Shown here: piece by piece, positions 3,386 through 12,166 of the stretch
Layout of the letters: each line of letters opens with the position of its first letter
How positions within the stretch are numbered: position 1 is the first letter of the stretch
Assembly: GCA_002162915.1 (NCBI GenBank)
Contig: MABB01000130.1
Span: 1 to 12,166 of the forward strand
Direction of reading: 5' to 3'
Source: Rhodospirillales bacterium 47_12_T64
GTDB lineage: Bacteria > Pseudomonadota > Alphaproteobacteria > Kiloniellales > Kiloniellaceae
DNA: 12,166 bases
Notes under the pieces: generated by a model
The model's input: only the letters and a program-made list of their open reading frames with translations
The model's database searches: none
Told to the model about the DNA's origin: nothing
Made by a program: the position numbers and the translations under genes

Positions 3386-3802
3386 TCAATCGTCTCGATG
3401 GACTTTCTCCATGCGCTCATGTTGTTCTTGTGCTTCCAAAGTCATTGTTGCTATTGGACGCGCTTCAAGCCTTTTGATGTTAATTGGATCACCTGTGATC
3501 TCGCAAAATCCATATTCATTTTCATCAATACGGCGTAGAGCTTCATCGATTTTCCCAATTAATTTACGTTCTCGGTCTCGTGTTCTGAGCTCCAGAGCGC
3601 GCTCCGTCTCAGATGAAGCACGATCAGCGAGATCTGGCTCTTGAAGTGTTTCGTTTTGAAGCGTCTGTAACGTTGCAGAAGATTCAGCTAGCAGTTCTTC
3701 CCTCCAGGCCAGAAGTTTTTGTTTAAAAAACTCCTGCATGACTGGATTCATAAACTCTTCGCCTTCTAAAGGACGATAATCGAGCGGAAGAGGTATAGTC
3801 AT
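3386..3802 (-). CDS. dksA: DksA-like RNA polymerase-binding protein with degenerate zinc site
   Basis: DksA binds in the RNA polymerase secondary channel and, with ppGpp, adjusts initiation at stress and growth-regulated promoters. The 138-residue product has the alphaproteobacterial DksA start (LPLDYRPLEGEEFMNP), a coiled coil at about 24-95, and the coiled-coil tip DLADRA with both Asp and the Ala needed for activity (about Asp57, Asp60, Ala62). The C-terminal globular part (YGFCEITGDP ... RLEARPIATMTLEAQEQHE) keeps only one of the four zinc cysteines. The pattern is Cys100, Thr103, Thr121, Ala124, whereas E. coli has four Cys. Single-Cys variants of this kind are known in alphaproteobacteria. 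The ATG at 3802 is preferred because GGGGG lies just upstream, whereas the ATG at 3814 (four extra residues) has no visible ribosome site. It is downstream of fliX on the same strand, with a candidate promoter of its own. Confidence 0.93.
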   Translation of the reverse strand: MTIPLPLDYRPLEGEEFMNPVMQEFFKQKLLAWREELLAESSATLQTLQNETLQEPDLADRASSETERALELRTRDRERKLIGKIDEALRRIDENEYGFCEITGDPINIKRLEARPIATMTLEAQEQHERMEKVHRDD

Positions 3803-3835
3803 GGCAACCCCCATAAATTAGCAATTTCGGCGTGC

Positions 3836-3863
3836 AGTATAGGCGATTTAAGTACAACGACAA
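3836..3863 (-). promoter_or_regulatory. Candidate sigma-70-type promoter for the dksA-like gene
   Basis: Read on the minus strand, TTGTCG (3863-3858) is followed after 16 bases by TATACT (3841-3836). Transcription would start near 3829, about 26 bases before the preferred dksA start codon. The match to -35/-10 consensus is fair and the position is sensible, but no experimental support is possible here. Confidence 0.4.
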
Positions 3864-3875
3864 GTTAGTCCTGAA

Positions 3876-3901
3876 GAATTAATTCAATTCTCTATTAATT
3901 C
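3876..3901. repeat. Palindrome and repeated ATTAATTC motif between fliX and dksA
   Basis: GAATTAATTC (3876-3885) is a perfect 10-bp palindrome, and its ATTAATTC part (3878-3885) recurs exactly at 3894-3901, 16 bases away. The block lies about 45-70 bases upstream of the inferred dksA transcription start. It could be an AT-rich UP element or an operator, or just chance in AT-rich spacer DNA. Confidence 0.4.
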
Positions 3902-3917
3902 TTTAAAAAACAACTCA

Positions 3918-4334
3918 CTAACGCCCCAGTTTCGCTAACTCGACAGCGGCACGCACCTCTACTTCATTCAAAGCTTCAAGGAGTCGTGGATCATCGATTT
4001 GTTCTCTTTGCTTGGCAATCAGCGATTCGATTTTCTCTAGACGCCAAACTGGTATTGTCCCCAAGAGCAGGCCTATTCGTAATTCTTCTAATTCATCAAG
4101 GATATCTTCGGCGTGACGTTTCGCTTTTTGCTTACCCGTTAAGGCATCAGGGACTTCTTGTATTGATAGCAAGCCCCCCAATCCAGCAACAGAGGTTACT
4201 CCTCCAGCGTCCGACGCGGCTTCCCCCGCACCAGTCTCCAAGGCATCACTAAAGCTACCAGAAACCCCACTCGCTTTTTGCTTTGAGCGCGTGCCAGATG
4301 TTGGTTTTACAGAAGAACCCGTTCTTATCTTCAT
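3918..4334 (-). CDS. fliX: Flagellar assembly regulator FliX
   Basis: In Caulobacter, FliX is a trans-acting factor that links completion of early (class II) flagellar structures to activity of the sigma-54 activator FlbD. This 138-residue product has a low-complexity Ser/Gly/Ala-rich N-terminus (about 1-55) and a conserved helical C-terminal half, from LTGKQKAKRHAEDILDELEE through LRIGLLLGTIPVWRLEKIES to ALNEVEVRAAVELAKLGR. That pattern and length are those of the FliX family. The ATG at 4334 is chosen because the ATG 11 bases upstream is out of frame and meets a stop after four codons. The ribosome site is weak (GGA seven bases upstream). The gene is divergent from flgI and 115 bases upstream of the dksA-like gene on the same strand. 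The location beside a sigma-54 flagellar promoter fits the role. Confidence 0.9.
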   Translation of the reverse strand: MKIRTGSSVKPTSGTRSKQKASGVSGSFSDALETGAGEAASDAGGVTSVAGLGGLLSIQEVPDALTGKQKAKRHAEDILDELEELRIGLLLGTIPVWRLEKIESLIAKQREQIDDPRLLEALNEVEVRAAVELAKLGR

Positions 4335-6595: not shown

Positions 6596-8473
6596 ATGTC
6601 TCTATCCGTAGCCCTAAACAACGCCCTGAGTGGCTTGAGAGTAAACCAAAGTGCTTTGGCTATTACCTCAACAAACCTGGCAAATGTGAATAACCCCAAT
6701 TATACCCGCAAAGTACTTTTGCAGGAAACACAGGTTATTGCCGGCGTTGGGTCTGGGGTAACTGCGGATACAATTCGACGAAATGTAAACACGCTCATTC
6801 AACGTGATTTTAGAGAAGAAACAGCAACGCTTTCTTCAATCCAAACTGAAAACAGTTATCTATCACGTATTCAGCAAATGTTTGGTACTGTTGCCAACAA
6901 AAATTCGGTTGGGGATTTAATTGATACTTTTTCAGCGTCCTTAGAAAACCTTGGCAACAGCCCGGAAATTTCAGCCAACTATTTCACTTCTGTTAACAAT
7001 GCAACCACACTTTCCGATCGCATACAGGATATGGCCAATACAGTTCAGAGCGAACGCATTCGGGCCGATCAAGAGATCAATCAAGCAGTACAAGACATTG
7101 AGTTACAGATTGCAATTATTGCTGAAATCAATGGAACTATTCCTGGACAGACCGCTCAGGGGTTACCGACGGCTGATTTAGAAGACAAACGAGATCAAGC
7201 CATCAACACCCTTGCTCAATATATGGATATTCAGTATTTCCAAACCGAAAAAAATCAAATTAATGTCCTCACAAAAAGCGGGCACACCCTCATAAGTGGT
7301 AGTTTCAAAGGCGATCTGTCCTTCAGACCAACCACTCTAATAACAGCTAGCGAATCTTATCCCGCGATATTGGATGGAATTCATCTTAATGATGGAGGCA
7401 ATTCCAGTGCTGCAAATGACATTACTTCCGGCATAACCGGAGGAAAACTCGAAAGTCTCTTTAAAGCTCGGGATACTATTCTTCCTGCCGTAACCAACCA
7501 ATTAGACCAAATGGCTGAAAAGTTACGGGATGAAGTTAACCGTATCCATAATAGAGGTGCCAATACCCCACTTGGCAATGGAACAGGCGCCCTAGACACG
7601 GCAGCACTTCTGGGATCTCGCAGCTTCTCAAACACCGCCCAAGCGATGACTTTGGGAAGTGATGTTAATATGATTCTCCTCGATATAAACGGGGCCGCTG
7701 TAGGCACAATGGGTACAATTAGTGCCGGAGCAACCACCCCGGCAGCCGTGCAAGCTCAGATAAATACATTTTTAGGGGCAAACGGAACAGCCGGATTTGA
7801 TGCAAACGGCCGTTTGGAGATTAAGCTAGATAGTAGTGTAAGGCTCGCCTTTCAAGACACGGGTGCCTCAACAAACGGCGGCGACTCTATTATCCAGTAC
7901 GATGCAGATGGCGATACGGTTAATGAAAATTATAATGGATTTTCAAACTTCTTTGGTCTGAACGATTTCTTCATTACGCCCCAGCTATCCACAACAGTGC
8001 CGGCTGTCGCAGGACAGGGTAATCAAACGGGTATTTCCTCTGGAATAATTGTGCGTTCAGACATTATTGAACAGCCTTCAAACATTTCCCGAGGCAGCTT
8101 AACGGGAACACCGCCCAACCTTGTATTGGGACCAGGTAATAATGATGTCGCTCTGGAGTTAGCTGGCGTATTCGAAACGAACCTTACCTTTAACGGCGTC
8201 ACAAATGGTCCGGACATAACATCGACAACACTCGGTGGATATGCAGGGGTAATGCTTTCCTATAGCGCGACCATAACACAGGCATCTGACAATTCACTAT
8301 CATTCCAAACCTCGTTGACTGGCGATTTGGAAATTAAAATGCAAAACGAGTCCGGTGTGAACATGGATGAAGAACTTGCAAATTTGATCGTTTTTCAAAA
8401 CGCCTATAACGCCGCAGCCAGAGTAATAACAATTACCAGTGAAATGCTCGACACGATTATAGAGCTCGCATAA
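6596..8473 (+). CDS. flgK: Flagellar hook-associated protein 1 FlgK
   Basis: FlgK is the first hook-filament junction protein, secreted and assembled on the finished hook. The 625-residue product starts with the family signature (SVALNNALSGLRVNQSALAI then TSTNLANVNNPNYTRKVL) and continues through the FlgK coiled region (QDMANTVQSERIRADQEINQ, LPTADLEDKRDQAINTLAQY). A variable central region, about residues 300-560, should form the exposed domains. The conserved end (ESGVNMDEELANLIVFQNAY, ARVITITSEMLDTIIELA) packs against the N-terminal helix in the D0/D1 core. The ATG has GAGG eight bases upstream. It lies 44 bases after the flgN-like gene and is followed by flgL after 11 bases. Length and motifs are normal. 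Confidence 0.97.
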   Translation: MSLSVALNNALSGLRVNQSALAITSTNLANVNNPNYTRKVLLQETQVIAGVGSGVTADTIRRNVNTLIQRDFREETATLSSIQTENSYLSRIQQMFGTVANKNSVGDLIDTFSASLENLGNSPEISANYFTSVNNATTLSDRIQDMANTVQSERIRADQEINQAVQDIELQIAIIAEINGTIPGQTAQGLPTADLEDKRDQAINTLAQYMDIQYFQTEKNQINVLTKSGHTLISGSFKGDLSFRPTTLITASESYPAILDGIHLNDGGNSSAANDITSGITGGKLESLFKARDTILPAVTNQLDQMAEKLRDEVNRIHNRGANTPLGNGTGALDTAALLGSRSFSNTAQAMTLGSDVNMILLDINGAAVGTMGTISAGATTPAAVQAQINTFLGANGTAGFDANGRLEIKLDSSVRLAFQDTGASTNGGDSIIQYDADGDTVNENYNGFSNFFGLNDFFITPQLSTTVPAVAGQGNQTGISSGIIVRSDIIEQPSNISRGSLTGTPPNLVLGPGNNDVALELAGVFETNLTFNGVTNGPDITSTTLGGYAGVMLSYSATITQASDNSLSFQTSLTGDLEIKMQNESGVNMDEELANLIVFQNAYNAAARVITITSEMLDTIIELA

Positions 8474-8484
8474 GGAGATAATTG

Positions 8485-9405
8485 ATGATACGCGTTTCAA
8501 GTTATGCACAAAATCAGCTCTTGCAAACGAACATGGGGACGACTCAGGCTAAGGTTTCGGATAGAACAGTCCAAATAGCCAGTGGGAAAGTAACGCAAGA
8601 GTACACCAACATATCTTCTCAGGCTCTTGAACTCGCAAGTTTACAGCGCGACAACGTAAGAACCACACAGTTTGAGCGAAATATTCAAACAACGAAAACC
8701 AGACTGGAGATCATGGATACCAACATGACCACCATGGCTTCACGCATCACAAATTTACTCAGTGATGTAGCTAATGGTCTTAATGGATCCAACATTCAAG
8801 AAATCCCGCTTGATCAGTTTGCAATCAGCTTTAGGCAAGAAATCACGGCCTTAATGAACGCACAACATGAAGGTAGATATCTTTTTGCAGGCAGCCTGAC
8901 AGACACCCCCCCCGTTGACGTTAATGATGTGGCCTATACACCTCAAGCAGGTCTGCCTGGCACCTTTACTGCCGATTTTGATTATTACCAGGGTGACAAC
9001 GTCAAGCTCAGTAACAGAATTGATCAAGACGCTACTCTGACTTACGGCATTACCGCCGACGATCCCACATTTGAAAACATCCTGCGTAGTTTGGCATATG
9101 TTGAATACGCAGGGGTAAATGATGACACAACCGTGTTACAAGAAGCCTACGATTTACTTCAAACCTCGCTTGATGGCGTCGCAACTTTTCGAAGTCAAAT
9201 GGGTGCTCAGCTCTCTATTCTGGAAGGTTCTGAAAAAAAACACGGTGATTTCAAGACTTATGTTCAGAATACAATTTCCGGAATCGAAAATATCGATGTC
9301 GCCGAAGCAACCAGTAGATTAGCCTTTGATCAAGTTCAGCTTCAGGCCTCTTATATCAGCCTGACCAGGATCAATGAAATAACACTTTTAAATTACCTTA
9401 GATAA
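8485..9405 (+). CDS. flgL: Flagellar hook-associated protein 3 FlgL
   Basis: FlgL is the second junction protein, a flagellin homologue linking FlgK to the filament. The 306-residue product begins IRVSSYAQNQLLQTNMGTTQ, with the flagellin-like segment VSDRTVQIASGK and helices LQRDNVRTTQFERNIQTTKT and RLEIMDTNMTTMASRITNLL. The EGRYLFAGSLTDTPPV segment is typical of FlgL/FlaA N-terminal domains. The C-terminal helix ISGIENIDVAEATSRLAFDQ / LQASYISLTRINEITLLNYL matches the FlgL D0 end. The ATG at 8485 is preferred over an in-frame TTG three bases upstream, because GGAG at 8474-8477 is seven bases from it. An eight-C run lies inside the gene at 8906-8913. Confidence 0.95.
   Translation: MIRVSSYAQNQLLQTNMGTTQAKVSDRTVQIASGKVTQEYTNISSQALELASLQRDNVRTTQFERNIQTTKTRLEIMDTNMTTMASRITNLLSDVANGLNGSNIQEIPLDQFAISFRQEITALMNAQHEGRYLFAGSLTDTPPVDVNDVAYTPQAGLPGTFTADFDYYQGDNVKLSNRIDQDATLTYGITADDPTFENILRSLAYVEYAGVNDDTTVLQEAYDLLQTSLDGVATFRSQMGAQLSILEGSEKKHGDFKTYVQNTISGIENIDVAEATSRLAFDQVQLQASYISLTRINEITLLNYLR
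8906..8913 (+). repeat. C8 mononucleotide tract inside flgL
   Basis: Eight consecutive C residues encode part of Thr-Pro-Pro in FlgL. Such tracts can slip during replication and would shift the frame in the first half of the gene. Here the frame is intact. Confidence 0.9.
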
Positions 9406-9470
9406 GTCTTTGTGATTTCACGCTTACTATTCGTTAATCATGGTTGCCTATTGTGACTGGAGAGACCATT

Positions 9471-9980
9471 ATGTTGGATATAGACCCTATTTATAAAGCT
9501 CAGGATTTCGCCGGGATCACAATGCCGAAGACCGAGGAAGTAACAAATAATATAATTACCCTGAAAACCCGCTTTGGCGTGATGGAAATTGATCGAGACA
9601 AAACCATCAAGATGCCCCGTGGAATGATCGGGTTTTCAGAGTATAAAGAGTATGGCCTAAGTGTATCACCGATACCTGTATTAGACGGTTTTATGCTATT
9701 GCAGTCTATTGATGAAGCAGACCTTACCTTCATTCTCAAGCCTTATGATCTTTCAAGTGGCTTGATATCTGACGAGAACCTTGCCAGCGCGATCCAACAA
9801 CTTTCGATCCTGCCCGATGATCTTGGGGTTATGTTGGTTACGACTTTGCGTCGTATGCCCGACAAACTGAAAAAGTCCGTTAATATGCGCGCACCCCTTT
9901 TCATCGACACCAGTAAACGACAGGCTTGGCAATACATTTTCAACAATGAAGATTACGATGTCCGCCATGAAATTGATTAA
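9471..9980 (+). CDS. fliW: Flagellar assembly factor FliW
   Basis: FliW binds flagellin and the translational regulator CsrA. In Bacillus and Campylobacter it frees or sequesters CsrA according to how much flagellin is in the cytoplasm. The 169-residue product contains the FliW pattern throughout: LKTRFGVMEIDRDKTIKMPR, GMIGFSEYKEYGL, MLLQSIDEADLTFILKPYDL, and the C-terminal KKSVNMRAPLFIDTSKRQAW / YIFNNEDYDVRHEI. A non-conserved extension of about 28 residues precedes the domain. The ATG at 9471 is chosen because GGAGAG (9459-9464) lies six bases upstream; an in-frame TTG at 9444 has no such site. It follows flgL by 65 bases with no visible terminator, so it is probably the last flagellar gene of this operon. 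CsrA itself is not in the window. Confidence 0.9.
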   Translation: MLDIDPIYKAQDFAGITMPKTEEVTNNIITLKTRFGVMEIDRDKTIKMPRGMIGFSEYKEYGLSVSPIPVLDGFMLLQSIDEADLTFILKPYDLSSGLISDENLASAIQQLSILPDDLGVMLVTTLRRMPDKLKKSVNMRAPLFIDTSKRQAWQYIFNNEDYDVRHEID

Positions 9981-10004
9981 ACAGAGCTATTAGTTTTAGA
10001 AATT

Positions 10005-10256
10005 ATGCACACCCTTAAACGGTTAATGAACGTCTTCTCAACGGTTCTTGAGATAGACGATGAAACTACGATTAAAAATCTGGAATATAACACCATACCC
10101 AAATGGGATTCTGTTGGGCATATGCAATTAATTGCAGCTATCGAGACAGAATTCGATATCCTCATGGAAACCGAGCAAATCATCGATATGAACTGCTTCG
10201 ATATGGCTTGTTCTATTTTGGGAGACCATGGGATTGACAACATTACTCGAAAATAA
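10005..10256 (+). CDS. Acyl carrier protein (non-housekeeping type)
   Basis: The 83-residue product has the four-helix acyl carrier layout. Helix 1 is LMNVFSTVLEID, and the attachment motif is WDSVGHMQL, with Asp35-Ser36, the serine that would receive the 4'-phosphopantetheine arm. Helix 2 is MQLIAAIETEFDI and helix 3 is about 65-73. The WDS-(V/L)-x-H variant is usual in carrier proteins of accessory pathways, whereas FabF-type AcpP has DSLD. No good ribosome site is seen before the ATG, but residues 4-18 form helix 1, so a later start would damage the fold. The gene starts 24 bases after fliW and overlaps the next reading frame by 29 bases. It likely carries an acyl chain made or activated by the two genes downstream. 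The final product is unknown. Confidence 0.88.
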   Translation: MHTLKRLMNVFSTVLEIDDETTIKNLEYNTIPKWDSVGHMQLIAAIETEFDILMETEQIIDMNCFDMACSILGDHGIDNITRK

Positions 10257-10983
10257 AGTTGCACTGGTAACTGGCTCTTCAAGAGGAATTGGTAAAGAAA
10301 TCGCCTGCCTTTTTGCAAAGAACAAAGCCAAAGTCATCCTTCACGGTGTCACAGAAGAACACTGTCAGGCAACAGCCCAGGAAATAGAAAACATCACAGG
10401 TGACAGGCCGCCAGTCTTTGCGGCCAATCTTTCTGATCTTCCCCAAGTCGAACAGATGTTTAAGGAGATTTTTAAGCAGGTAAAGGGCTTGGATATTCTG
10501 GTCAACAATGCAGGGGTTTTAGAAGATCGCCTGATTGGTATGATCAGCGCGGATAACCTGGAAACAATTTTTAGCGTCAATACCTTTGGAACTCTCCACT
10601 GTTTACAGCTTGCCTCCAGATTGATGAGAAAAAGTACCGCTCCGTCAATTATCAACCTTTCGTCAATAATCGGCGTTCAAGGAGCAGCAGGCCAAACAGC
10701 TTACGCAGCATCGAAAGCCGCTGTAATCGGGATAACGAAATCCGCAGCAAAAGAACTGGGGCCGCAAGGCATTCGGGTGAACGCACTTGCTCCCGGCCTG
10801 ATTGAAACCAACATGATCGAGCATCTTAGTGATCGTGCGATAGGATCACATATTGAAAACACCCCACTAGGTCGGCTGGGTTCTCCGAACGATGTTGCAA
10901 AAGCTGCCCTGTTCCTGGCCAGCGATCTGTCCTCTTTTATCACAGGTCAGACTCTACAGGTTGATGGAGGTTTAAGAGTTTGA
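10228..10983 (+). CDS. Short-chain dehydrogenase/reductase, FabG-type
   Basis: This 251-residue classical SDR is an NAD(P)H-dependent oxidoreductase, most similar in build to 3-oxoacyl-ACP reductases. The cofactor-binding TGSSRGIG lies at 15-22 and NNAG at 93-96. The active-site residues are Asn118, Ser146, Tyr159 and Lys163 (YAASK), followed by RVNALAPGLIETNM and the C-terminal ITGQTLQVDGGL. All catalytic residues are present. Placed beside an acyl carrier protein and an acyl ligase, it probably reduces a carrier-bound 3-oxoacyl group, but sugar or alcohol substrates cannot be excluded. GGGAG at 10220-10224 serves either the ATG at 10228 (short spacing) or the in-frame TTG at 10234 (better spacing). 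Its beginning overlaps the ACP gene by 29 bases and its end overlaps the ligase start by four. It should not be named fabG without checking for the housekeeping copy elsewhere. Confidence 0.9.
   Translation: MGLTTLLENKVALVTGSSRGIGKEIACLFAKNKAKVILHGVTEEHCQATAQEIENITGDRPPVFAANLSDLPQVEQMFKEIFKQVKGLDILVNNAGVLEDRLIGMISADNLETIFSVNTFGTLHCLQLASRLMRKSTAPSIINLSSIIGVQGAAGQTAYAASKAAVIGITKSAAKELGPQGIRVNALAPGLIETNMIEHLSDRAIGSHIENTPLGRLGSPNDVAKAALFLASDLSSFITGQTLQVDGGLRV
10966..10970 (+). promoter_or_regulatory. Ribosome binding site that fixes a TTG start for the ligase
   Basis: GGAGG lies nine bases upstream of TTG at 10980. The ATG at 10985 is in another frame and stops after eight codons. The frame beginning at the TTG stays open to the window end. 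Confidence 0.7.
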
Positions 10984-12166
10984 AATGCCTAGAAACAGCA
11001 TTTCAAAATAACACTTCAAAAGTCGCTTTAGTCTCCGCAGACACGGGTGACGTATTTTCTTTTACTGACCTCCTTCATCACCGGGACAATCTTCTACAAA
11101 TATTCCCTAGAAAGCAGGGAAATTTAATTTTTATACAATCTCAGAATACCTACCGTTCTGTTGCGACGGTTTTGTCCCTACTCTCTTCAAATAACACAAT
11201 CTGCCTCTTAGATCCGTCGATGACATCACGGACACTGGAAAAATATAGAACCACGTTTTCACCGGATATTATTATTTCAGACCAATCCGTTAATAATAGT
11301 ATCCCAGGCTATTTTTCCACCCCTCATCCCTATTCAGAGGAACTGAAAATACTCTGTAAGGAGAGCGACTTATCCCGCCAGCTCCCCTTACAATTGCGCC
11401 TGATTTTGCCAACTTCAGGGTCCACTGGCTCTTTAAAATTTGTAAAACTAGCCGAGGAGAACCTGACCATAAACGGACAGGACATCTGTAACGCTATGCA
11501 GATTTCCTCAAATGATCGCGCTTATGCACATTTACCTTTTCATTATTCCTATGGCTTATCTGTCTTAATCAGCCACGCCCTGGCTGGGGCAACATCTGTC
11601 GTCACGTCAGCCAGTATTATGGAAAAAAAATTCTGGCAGGAAATGCGTCATCATAAATGCAACTTTTTCCCCGGAGTTCCCTTCCATTTTCAAACACTAC
11701 TCAGGTTTGGGGTTGAGCGCTTAAGAATTCCAGATGTAACCCGCTTCTCTGTTGCAGGAGGGACCTTGGATGGAGCCCATCAAGAACAGTTTCTCAAGCA
11801 ACTTTCTGCAGATAGTGACTTCTACATTATGTACGGTCAAACTGAAGCATCACCGAGAATTTCGACCTTTAACCTTCGAAAATATGCAAAAAAACTTGGC
11901 TCTGTGGGGCAAGTAATTGGATCAAGTAAAATTTCAATAGAGCCGAACCAAGGCGAAATCCTACTTTCTGGCCCCAACGTTATGCAGGGTTACGCAACGG
12001 AGCGTAACGATCTCTATTTACCGGACCAGATGAACGCGCGGCTTTCAACCGGAGATTTGGGATACTTGGATGAGGAAGGCTTTCTCTACATTACCGGGCG
12101 ATTAAAGCGTATAGCCAAGCTATACGGTCTCCGATTGAATCTCGACGACATGGAAAACCACTTGTC
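10980..12166 (+). CDS. AMP-forming acyl/aryl ligase, ANL superfamily (3' partial)
   Basis: The frame is open from TTG at 10980 to the window end, giving 395 visible residues. ANL enzymes activate a carboxylate with ATP to an acyl-adenylate and pass it to CoA or a carrier protein. The ATP loop is LPTSGSTGSLKFVKL at about 142-156. The A5 motif YGQTEAS is at 285-291, STGDLGYLDEEGF at 356-368 with the ribose-binding Asp359, and the hinge region GRLKRIAKLYGLRLNLDDME at 373-392. The C-terminal subdomain with the catalytic Lys is cut off by the window. The loop differs from the usual TSGSTGxPKG in having Leu and Phe where Pro and Gly are common. The start overlaps the SDR stop (TTGA), which implies coupled translation. 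The substrate is unknown; a fatty or hydroxy acid destined for the nearby carrier protein is the simplest guess. Confidence 0.88.
   Translation, partial: MKCLETAFQNNTSKVALVSADTGDVFSFTDLLHHRDNLLQIFPRKQGNLIFIQSQNTYRSVATVLSLLSSNNTICLLDPSMTSRTLEKYRTTFSPDIIISDQSVNNSIPGYFSTPHPYSEELKILCKESDLSRQLPLQLRLILPTSGSTGSLKFVKLAEENLTINGQDICNAMQISSNDRAYAHLPFHYSYGLSVLISHALAGATSVVTSASIMEKKFWQEMRHHKCNFFPGVPFHFQTLLRFGVERLRIPDVTRFSVAGGTLDGAHQEQFLKQLSADSDFYIMYGQTEASPRISTFNLRKYAKKLGSVGQVIGSSKISIEPNQGEILLSGPNVMQGYATERNDLYLPDQMNARLSTGDLGYLDEEGFLYITGRLKRIAKLYGLRLNLDDMENHL

Follow-up and report, generated by a model that had tools for sequence, protein, structure and literature searches.

Directly behind the flagellar gene fliW, a stretch of DNA from a Kiloniella metagenome-assembled genome (MAG) carries genes for an acyl carrier protein (ACP), a short-chain dehydrogenase/reductase (SDR) and an acyl ligase of the ANL type, which are followed on the same contig by genes for homologs of LuxE and LuxC. 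The stretch analyzed (the window) comprised bases 1-12166 of contig C58, which is 15096 bases long and extends 2.9 kb beyond the window. These five adjacent genes, hereafter called the module, probably make a small acid that decorates a sugar of the flagellum. The genes of the module and those flanking it are given below.

10005..10256, plus strand: ACP (83 amino acids, aa), with Ser36 in a W-D-S-x-x-H-M motif (14-sequence alignment, weak PF00550 match, PDB 2lml)
10228..10983, plus strand: SDR reductase (251 aa), FabG-like at subfamily level (Pfam, NCBIfam, alignment)
10980..12166, plus strand: ANL (AMP-forming) acyl ligase (395 aa in the window), left open as the window end cuts the gene (Pfam, alignment)
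contig 12368-13432, plus strand: LuxE homolog (PF04443, 3.8e-44)
contig 13438-14691, plus strand: LuxC homolog (PF05893, 6.5e-22)
6596..8473, plus strand: flgK (TIGR02492, above its cut-off; flagellar context)
8482..9405, plus strand: flgL (flagellin/FlgL-type, 307 aa; flagellar context)
9444..9980, plus strand: fliW (PF02623, 1.7e-17), immediately 5' of the ACP gene
contig 14768-15094, minus strand: partial sugar-1-phosphate nucleotidyltransferase at the contig end (weak HddC-type match)

The gap between the end of fliW at 9980 and the ACP gene is 24 bases, in which a terminator scan found no terminator-like site. A scan of open reading frames (ORFs) showed overlaps of 29 bases between the ACP and SDR genes and of 4 bases between the SDR and ligase genes. 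Judged by eye against the start in Kiloniella laminariae, TTG at 10234 is an alternative start of the SDR gene. The window stops within the ligase gene at a run of 45 N, beyond which the frame continues to contig position 12371. A first-pass annotation of this DNA had described three overlapping plus-strand genes following fliW without a terminator, and the ORF coordinates, the gap and the terminator scan agree with it. The rightward extension that it proposed led into acyl and sugar genes and not into an unrelated pathway. That the three genes are a complete system was ruled out by the same extension, which revealed LuxE and LuxC.

Taken alone, the ACP had no match at 1e-3 in Pfam or NCBIfam, and its match to PF00550 (E = 0.015) was below the family cut-off. 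However, W34, D35, S36, H39, and M40 were invariant across 14 aligned ACPs including that of the window, and the protein matched a putative ACP of solved structure (PDB 2lml) at 2.3e-4. The ACP of G566, a genome of another alphaproteobacterial family that is outside this alignment, reads W-N-S. The SDR matched PF13561 at 3.1e-65, and its residues S146, Y159, and K163 were invariant in an alignment of 12 relatives. Among the 25 NCBIfam models listed, it scored below the FabG equivalog cut-offs (best 255.9 vs. 296 bits) and above the cut-off of two subfamily models, NF005559 and NF009466. The ligase matched PF00501 at 6.2e-33 and reached the cut-off of none of the 25 NCBIfam models listed, the third of which is a 2-oxoglutaryl-ACP ligase. 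In its profile search (60 of 64 matches), gramicidin synthetase adenylation domains and oxalate-, succinylbenzoate-, and coumarate-CoA ligases outranked the first match named fatty-acyl-CoA synthase (8.4e-52 for oxalate-CoA ligase vs. 1.2e-38). Thus, the identities given in the first-pass annotation stand for the SDR and the ligase and, backed by the motif alignment, for the ACP, but its term "FabG-type" does not hold beyond the subfamily level.

Both LuxE and LuxC scored far below the curated Lux cut-offs (77.7 vs. 550 and 37.3 vs. 750 bits, respectively). C245 of LuxC was invariant in 12 of 12 sequences and C345 of LuxE in 11 of 11, and each aligns with a cysteine of the LuxC-LuxE complex 7xc6. 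The two cysteines of that complex are presumably the catalytic ones. No ketosynthase was found among the ORFs 3' of fliW on the MAG contig, nor in K. laminariae to the contig end; whole genomes were not searched. These gene contents and orders and the conserved residues were observed directly, as was the association with flagellin genes described below.

Upstream of the module and of a flgI-like gene, two minus-strand genes, for DksA and FliX (3386-4334), lie within the plus-strand flagellar run of the window.

The slot behind fliW in Kiloniella

The source assembly (G000) is 1.48 Mb and 77.6% complete. The sizes listed for the other eight Kiloniella genomes are 4.2-4.9 Mb, so that either the genome is much smaller or the bin is unusually patchy. 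One of them, G002, was taken as K. laminariae DSM 19542. The module was identified in two of the nine genomes, the MAG and K. laminariae, for which the ligase search and the LuxE search agreed, and these two were the only LuxE carriers among 61 genomes of the order. In K. laminariae, the five genes of the module have an identical order and begin 12 bases after fliW. Contig C36, on which they lie, ends 325 bases past LuxC; judged by eye, this end is the beginning of an IS3-type transposase. LuxC is therefore followed by a transposase-like stretch in K. laminariae and by the opposing nucleotidyltransferase gene in the MAG.

Six of the seven module-free Kiloniella genomes possess a gene for an RmlA-like nucleotidyltransferase directly after fliW, which in G005 is in pieces in different frames (L067). 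In G003, an opposing methyltransferase gene is found there instead. The module-free stretches extend further in six genomes, as the contig of G006 is too short. In all six, a gene for a WbqC-family protein is followed by those for a TPR/GT41 protein, FliS, and FliD on the strand opposite fliW (Pfam labels were assigned for one of the six). FlaG is within reach in five of these stretches and flagellin in four. The GT41 family was found in eight of the nine Kiloniella genomes, the exception being the incomplete MAG, and a control search for this family was also positive in Caulobacter. Caulobacter FlmG, which consists of TPR repeats and a GT-B domain, functions in flagellin glycosylation (PMC7591256; for this and the papers cited below, statements refer to the accessible part of the text).

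Contig C7 of K. laminariae contains, in this order, a transposase fragment (by eye) and genes for two GT41-type proteins, a NeuD/PglD-type acyltransferase, FliS, FliD, FlaG, flagellin, a DegT aminotransferase, another flagellin, and an opposing RmlA. The acyltransferase belongs to the NeuD/PglD/VioB family; it and the DegT protein were below the equivalog cut-offs. In G003, GT41, FliS, FliD, FlaG, flagellin, DegT, flagellin, and RmlA genes are found on one contig with fliW, in the order and orientation of C7 and without the acyltransferase. Because of this synteny, C7 very probably continues C36. Transposase-like fragments recognized by eye at the facing ends of the K. laminariae contigs (L097:224-520 and L025:13780-14105) are the probable cause of the assembly break behind the module. 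The single flagellin match of the MAG is partial and lies on contig C30; its main flagellins are off the module contig. NeuB had no match in the incomplete MAG and one in K. laminariae, on another contig.

In a tree of FlgL and FliW, the two module carriers were placed apart on supported branches, so that at least two gains, losses, or exchanges of the module are needed. The LuxE proteins of these carriers were sisters (100/100). The slot behind fliW behaves as a variable modification locus in Kiloniella. The comparison across relatives that the first-pass annotation had proposed thus revealed no fixed link between the module and fliW, which adjoin in only two of nine genomes, but a slot whose content varies.

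Occurrence of the module in other bacteria

LuxE was chosen as the marker of the module, given that a bare ligase search matched 41 of 41 genomes at E <= 0.001. Of the genomes sampled, 23 of 398 in the phylum and 10 of 385 in the class had a relative of LuxE, with the source genome counted in each. One stop codon each was found within the matched stretch of the LuxE genes of G186, G378, and G386, which reflects either decay or alignment beyond the true end. Scanning of 29 loci with the module profiles identified 25 with ACP, ligase, and LuxE, which were counted. Four loci, L083, L084, L085, and L088, were excluded because no module-type ACP was labeled near LuxE, while L077, in which one 877-aa ORF spans ligase and LuxE, was included. 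In L084, LuxE and LuxC are fused in 821 aa and accompanied by ligase and GDP-mannose dehydratase genes. The ORFs at LuxE of L083 and L085, of which the first half was scanned, are 825 and 820 aa long, respectively. An Fe-alcohol dehydrogenase gene accompanies the LuxE-type ORF and ligase in L085 and the ACP, ligase, and LuxE genes in L116. In L074 and L075, ORF pairs in or beside the module (L074:11867-13653 and L075:4002-5809) are split transketolases by eye. An ORF of 611 aa in L110 (L110:13112-14947) matches DegT only at residues 261-600, so that either its first part lacks an assignment or its start is wrong.

LuxC was present in 23 of the 25 module loci; L116 ends at LuxE and L110 lacks LuxC within 20 kb. 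An N-acyltransferase was found nearby in 15 loci, of which seven had PseH and eight a NeuD-type protein. In L071, L077, and L080, the gene order is PseB-PseC-PseF-PseI-PseG-PseH-ACP-SDR-ligase-LuxE-LuxC, with one additional gene in L071 and L077 and the ligase-LuxE fusion in L077, and L078, L079, L086, and L087 are variants of this arrangement. In G566, genes for ACP, ligase, and LuxE face those for SDR, DegT, and a hexapeptide acyltransferase, which are followed by genes for a TPR protein, flagellin, and FlbT. Together with the Kiloniella stretch from fliW to flagellin, which is a sugar-modification locus with TPR/GT41, this neighborhood bears out the link to flagellin that the first-pass annotation had marked as inference.

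The nearest flagellin gene was within 20 kb of LuxE in 8 of 14 genomes, compared with 0.39 expected; the corresponding chance value of 4e-10 assumes independent genomes, which these are not. This count omitted eight of the 22 LuxE genomes other than the source genome, namely seven of one genus, five of which have frames of 822-833 aa at LuxE, and G291, whose match is weak. Four of those omitted (G057, G065, G100, and G291) had no flagellin on the LuxE contig, and their inclusion gives 8 of 18; the other four (G069, G092, G188, and G204) were not in the flagellin search. Some module stretches had no labeled flagellar gene, including those of several alphaproteobacteria and of a SAR86 contig, which has genes for a DegT aminotransferase and for a dehydratase of the polysaccharide type. 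The module is therefore a tool for surface sugars that recurs in flagellin loci.

Proposed function and alternatives

Two adenylating enzymes in one gene run call for an explanation. In Vibrio cholerae O1, the amino group of perosamine bears tetronate (2,4-dihydroxybutanoate; PMC3441752), and the tetronate pathway suggests a role for LuxE/LuxC as carboxylate reducer, for an alcohol dehydrogenase in the next step and for the ligase as loader. With this pathway as the model for the acyl part and the viosamine island of Pseudomonas syringae as the model for the sugar part, we infer a substrate, an order of steps, and a flagellin sugar as acceptor. LuxE would activate a small carboxylic acid with ATP and transfer it, in thioester form, to the cysteine of LuxC, and LuxC would reduce this thioester to an aldehyde. 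The SDR, in place of the alcohol dehydrogenase, would then reduce the aldehyde to the alcohol and yield a short hydroxy acid. The ANL ligase would adenylate the finished hydroxy acid and load it on the ACP, from which an N-acyltransferase of the PglD/NeuD/VioB type would move the acyl group to the amino group of a 4-amino sugar. Finally, a TPR/GT41 (FlmG-like) transferase would attach the acylated sugar to flagellin. As the starting acid, malate would give the right skeleton.

We lean toward the reading that ACP, SDR, ANL ligase, LuxE, and LuxC form a short-acyl module in the flagellin-glycosylation locus of Kiloniella, by which a short hydroxy acid would be placed onto a flagellin amino sugar. 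Of its parts, a role in the flagellin glycan is likely and the supply of an acyl-ACP for N-acylation of a sugar rather probable, while a tetronate-like short hydroxyacyl group is a tentative candidate for the product.

The masses reported for Aeromonas bear on the product. The flagellin glycan of the Group II strain AH-3 contains a linking sugar of 376.14 Da and an unexplained residue of 102 Da (PMC7874193). Replacement of one acetyl group of Pse5Ac7Ac (316 Da) by a C4H6O3 acyl group gives 376.148 Da, and C4H6O3 itself has a mass of 102.032 Da. The computed sum for the whole AH-3 glycan is 1491.490, compared with 1491.5 reported. This fit is suggestive. An fgi-1 deletion of AH-3 keeps the 376-Da sugar (PMC7874193), as expected by the short-acyl model. 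For A. caviae, Pse5Ac7Ac is reported in Sch3 (PMC9290775), and Pse5Ac7Ac9Ac is given in the paper on AH-1, whose own sugar is 403 Da and in which one figure legend also names, without explanation, a "376 Da sugar" (PMC4691044). A comparison of the masses in module-bearing and module-free strains is thus no more than suggestive. The module is described under Group II, and the luxE status of AH-1 and Sch3 is not stated in the accessible text. Among the papers listed by a literature search, which mostly excluded subscription journals, there was no pairing of flagellin with tetronic acid; a gut study pairs flagellin with "dihydroxybutan" (PMC7553750). That the module of flagellin islands is in general a tetronate-type short hydroxyacyl pathway and not a fatty-acid pathway, that its C4H6O3 product would be both the 102-Da residue and the acyl group of the 376-Da sugar of AH-3, and that the Kiloniella module would acylate a flagellin amino sugar is, as one combined claim, speculative and on the doubtful side. 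If the short-hydroxyacyl reading is true, a likely product can be named, two unexplained AH-3 masses are accounted for, and flagellin chemistry is tied to that of the O-antigen.

Several observations weigh against the short-hydroxyacyl reading. The MAG contig ends without any acyltransferase, glycosyltransferase, or flagellin gene, and neither a GT41 match nor a VioA-like DegT match was found in the incomplete MAG. DegT aminotransferases are also found in six of the seven module-free Kiloniella genomes, so that this sugar gene is not peculiar to module carriers. The mass matches are nominal or to two decimals and allow other formulas, and the likeness to the tetronate-type carrier protein, ANL ligase, and LuxE/LuxC is by domain class only. 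G566 has no LuxC within 20 kb. Six of the eight flagellin-linked genomes are of one family, and by family the link is found in three of eight. Moreover, only 15 of the 25 module loci have an SDR with a strong match, and FabA-like dehydratases near three SDR-less modules (L075:7928-8470, L109:4223-4711, and L115:511-981) would be more in keeping with an acyl-ACP chain than with an aldehyde step. Products may differ between modules; alternatively, an acyl-ACP may be the substrate of the SDR.

These dehydratases, the naming of the families and what has been proposed in print for Aeromonas and Enterobacteriaceae (PMC7874193, PMC4875605) all favor a fatty-acyl "liposugar", for which the module would activate a fatty acid, LuxE/LuxC would give a fatty aldehyde or a medium- or long-chain acyl group would be held on the ACP, and the flagellin glycan would be lipidated. 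Given that no ketosynthase was found 3' of fliW on the contig or in K. laminariae to the contig end, that the ligase profile is nearer to small-acid ligases and that LuxE/LuxC score far below the curated Lux cut-offs, we regard lipidation as unlikely. A viosamine-type 3-hydroxyacyl pathway appears improbable too. In such a pathway, the ligase would replace VioS and load a 3-oxo acid on the ACP, the SDR would form the 3-hydroxyacyl group, a VioB-like enzyme would transfer it to a dTDP-4-amino sugar, and LuxE/LuxC would be separate. The K. laminariae flagellin cluster, with its RmlA, DegT aminotransferase, and NeuD/VioB-family acyltransferase, would suit it, and vioR of P. syringae is needed for the 3-hydroxybutanoyl sugar (PMC3927599). 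However, LuxC accompanies ACP, ligase, and LuxE in 23 of the 25 loci and the SDR in 15, so that LuxE/LuxC look like the core and the SDR optional. That the module serves another surface polymer, such as a lipopolysaccharide O-chain or a capsule, and lies behind fliW by chance would suit the O-antigen role of the V. cholerae pathway and the related modules in stretches without labeled flagellin, but is quite unlikely, given its same place 12-24 bases from fliW in two non-sister Kiloniella species, the fliW-ACP gap free of a terminator-like site in the window, and the GT41 and flagellin genes to which this locus extends in relatives.

Comparison with known systems

The LuxC-LuxE complex of bioluminescence (PDB 7xc6) has homologous LuxE and LuxC with the aligned cysteines, to which Kiloniella adds an ACP and an ANL ligase. 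No luxA, luxB, or luxD was found on the contig beside LuxE/LuxC, where the only other gene is the opposing nucleotidyltransferase; LuxAB and LuxD were not searched genome-wide. The sfmABCDE genes of S. oneidensis were set aside as a counterpart, as in the accessible description an acyl-ACP reductase is among these five genes but ligase, LuxE, and LuxC are not (PMC3765264).

The viosamine island of P. syringae contains an ACP, a ketosynthase, and a reductase, VioR, and has homologs in P. aeruginosa PAK, in which orfA, B, C, D, and E are the counterparts of vioA, acp, vioS (ketoacyl-ACP synthase III), vioR (reductase), and vioB (PMC3927599). An ACP and an acyl-ACP reductase are in common with Kiloniella, and the VioA/VioB-type partners have family-level counterparts, below the equivalog cut-offs, in the flagellin cluster of K. 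laminariae. Different from Kiloniella with its ligase, LuxE, and LuxC, this system uses the ketosynthase VioS, and the seven-gene set as listed has no ligase, LuxE, or LuxC (PMC3927599). A VioS-type ketosynthase III was likewise absent after fliW in the MAG and in K. laminariae within the limits of the ketosynthase search given above. The comparison with P. aeruginosa made in the first-pass annotation is sound within these limits; the exact counterpart is the five-gene set of Aeromonas Group II.

RfbM of V. cholerae is an Fe-alcohol dehydrogenase and RfbO an acyltransferase. The tetronate pathway to which they belong (RfbK-RfbO, VC0248-VC0252) also contains a carrier protein, a 2,4-dihydroxybutanoate CoA/ACP ligase, and a LuxE-domain protein, and its product N-acylates a 4-amino sugar. 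This pathway serves the O-antigen. In the window, an SDR takes the place of an Fe-alcohol dehydrogenase such as RfbM; L116 and L085, whose gene sets, like that of L084, resemble this pathway, contain an Fe-alcohol dehydrogenase.

The Enterobacteriaceae flagellin islands contain Acp, FabG, CaiC, LuxE, and LuxC in many strains, for which a liposugar was suggested (PMC4875605). The enzyme classes are the same as in Kiloniella and the host group is different; fliW and a product are not mentioned in the accessible text. In the flagellin island of Aeromonas Group II, the order is orf1-orf2-orf3-luxE-luxC, and its authors also suggest a "liposugar" (PMC7874193). The same five enzyme classes occur together in the MAG and in K. 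laminariae and, similar to Aeromonas, are linked to flagellar genes: fliW is 24 bases away, flagellins are found in the same locus of four module-free relatives, and those of K. laminariae are on the second contig placed by synteny. The Aeromonas set is located among pse genes, with the GT2 glycosyltransferase gene fgi-1 after luxC, whereas the Kiloniella set lies after fliW, with no pse gene or GT2 adjoining it on the contig. Thus, this kind of five-gene set has already been described in print, with the product suggestion in both describing papers limited to a "liposugar", and Kiloniella adds a member that sits elsewhere. Flagellin islands and surface-sugar clusters in several families of proteobacteria share these enzymes, and our results place the module in an alphaproteobacterium, at a fliW slot whose content varies among species of one genus.

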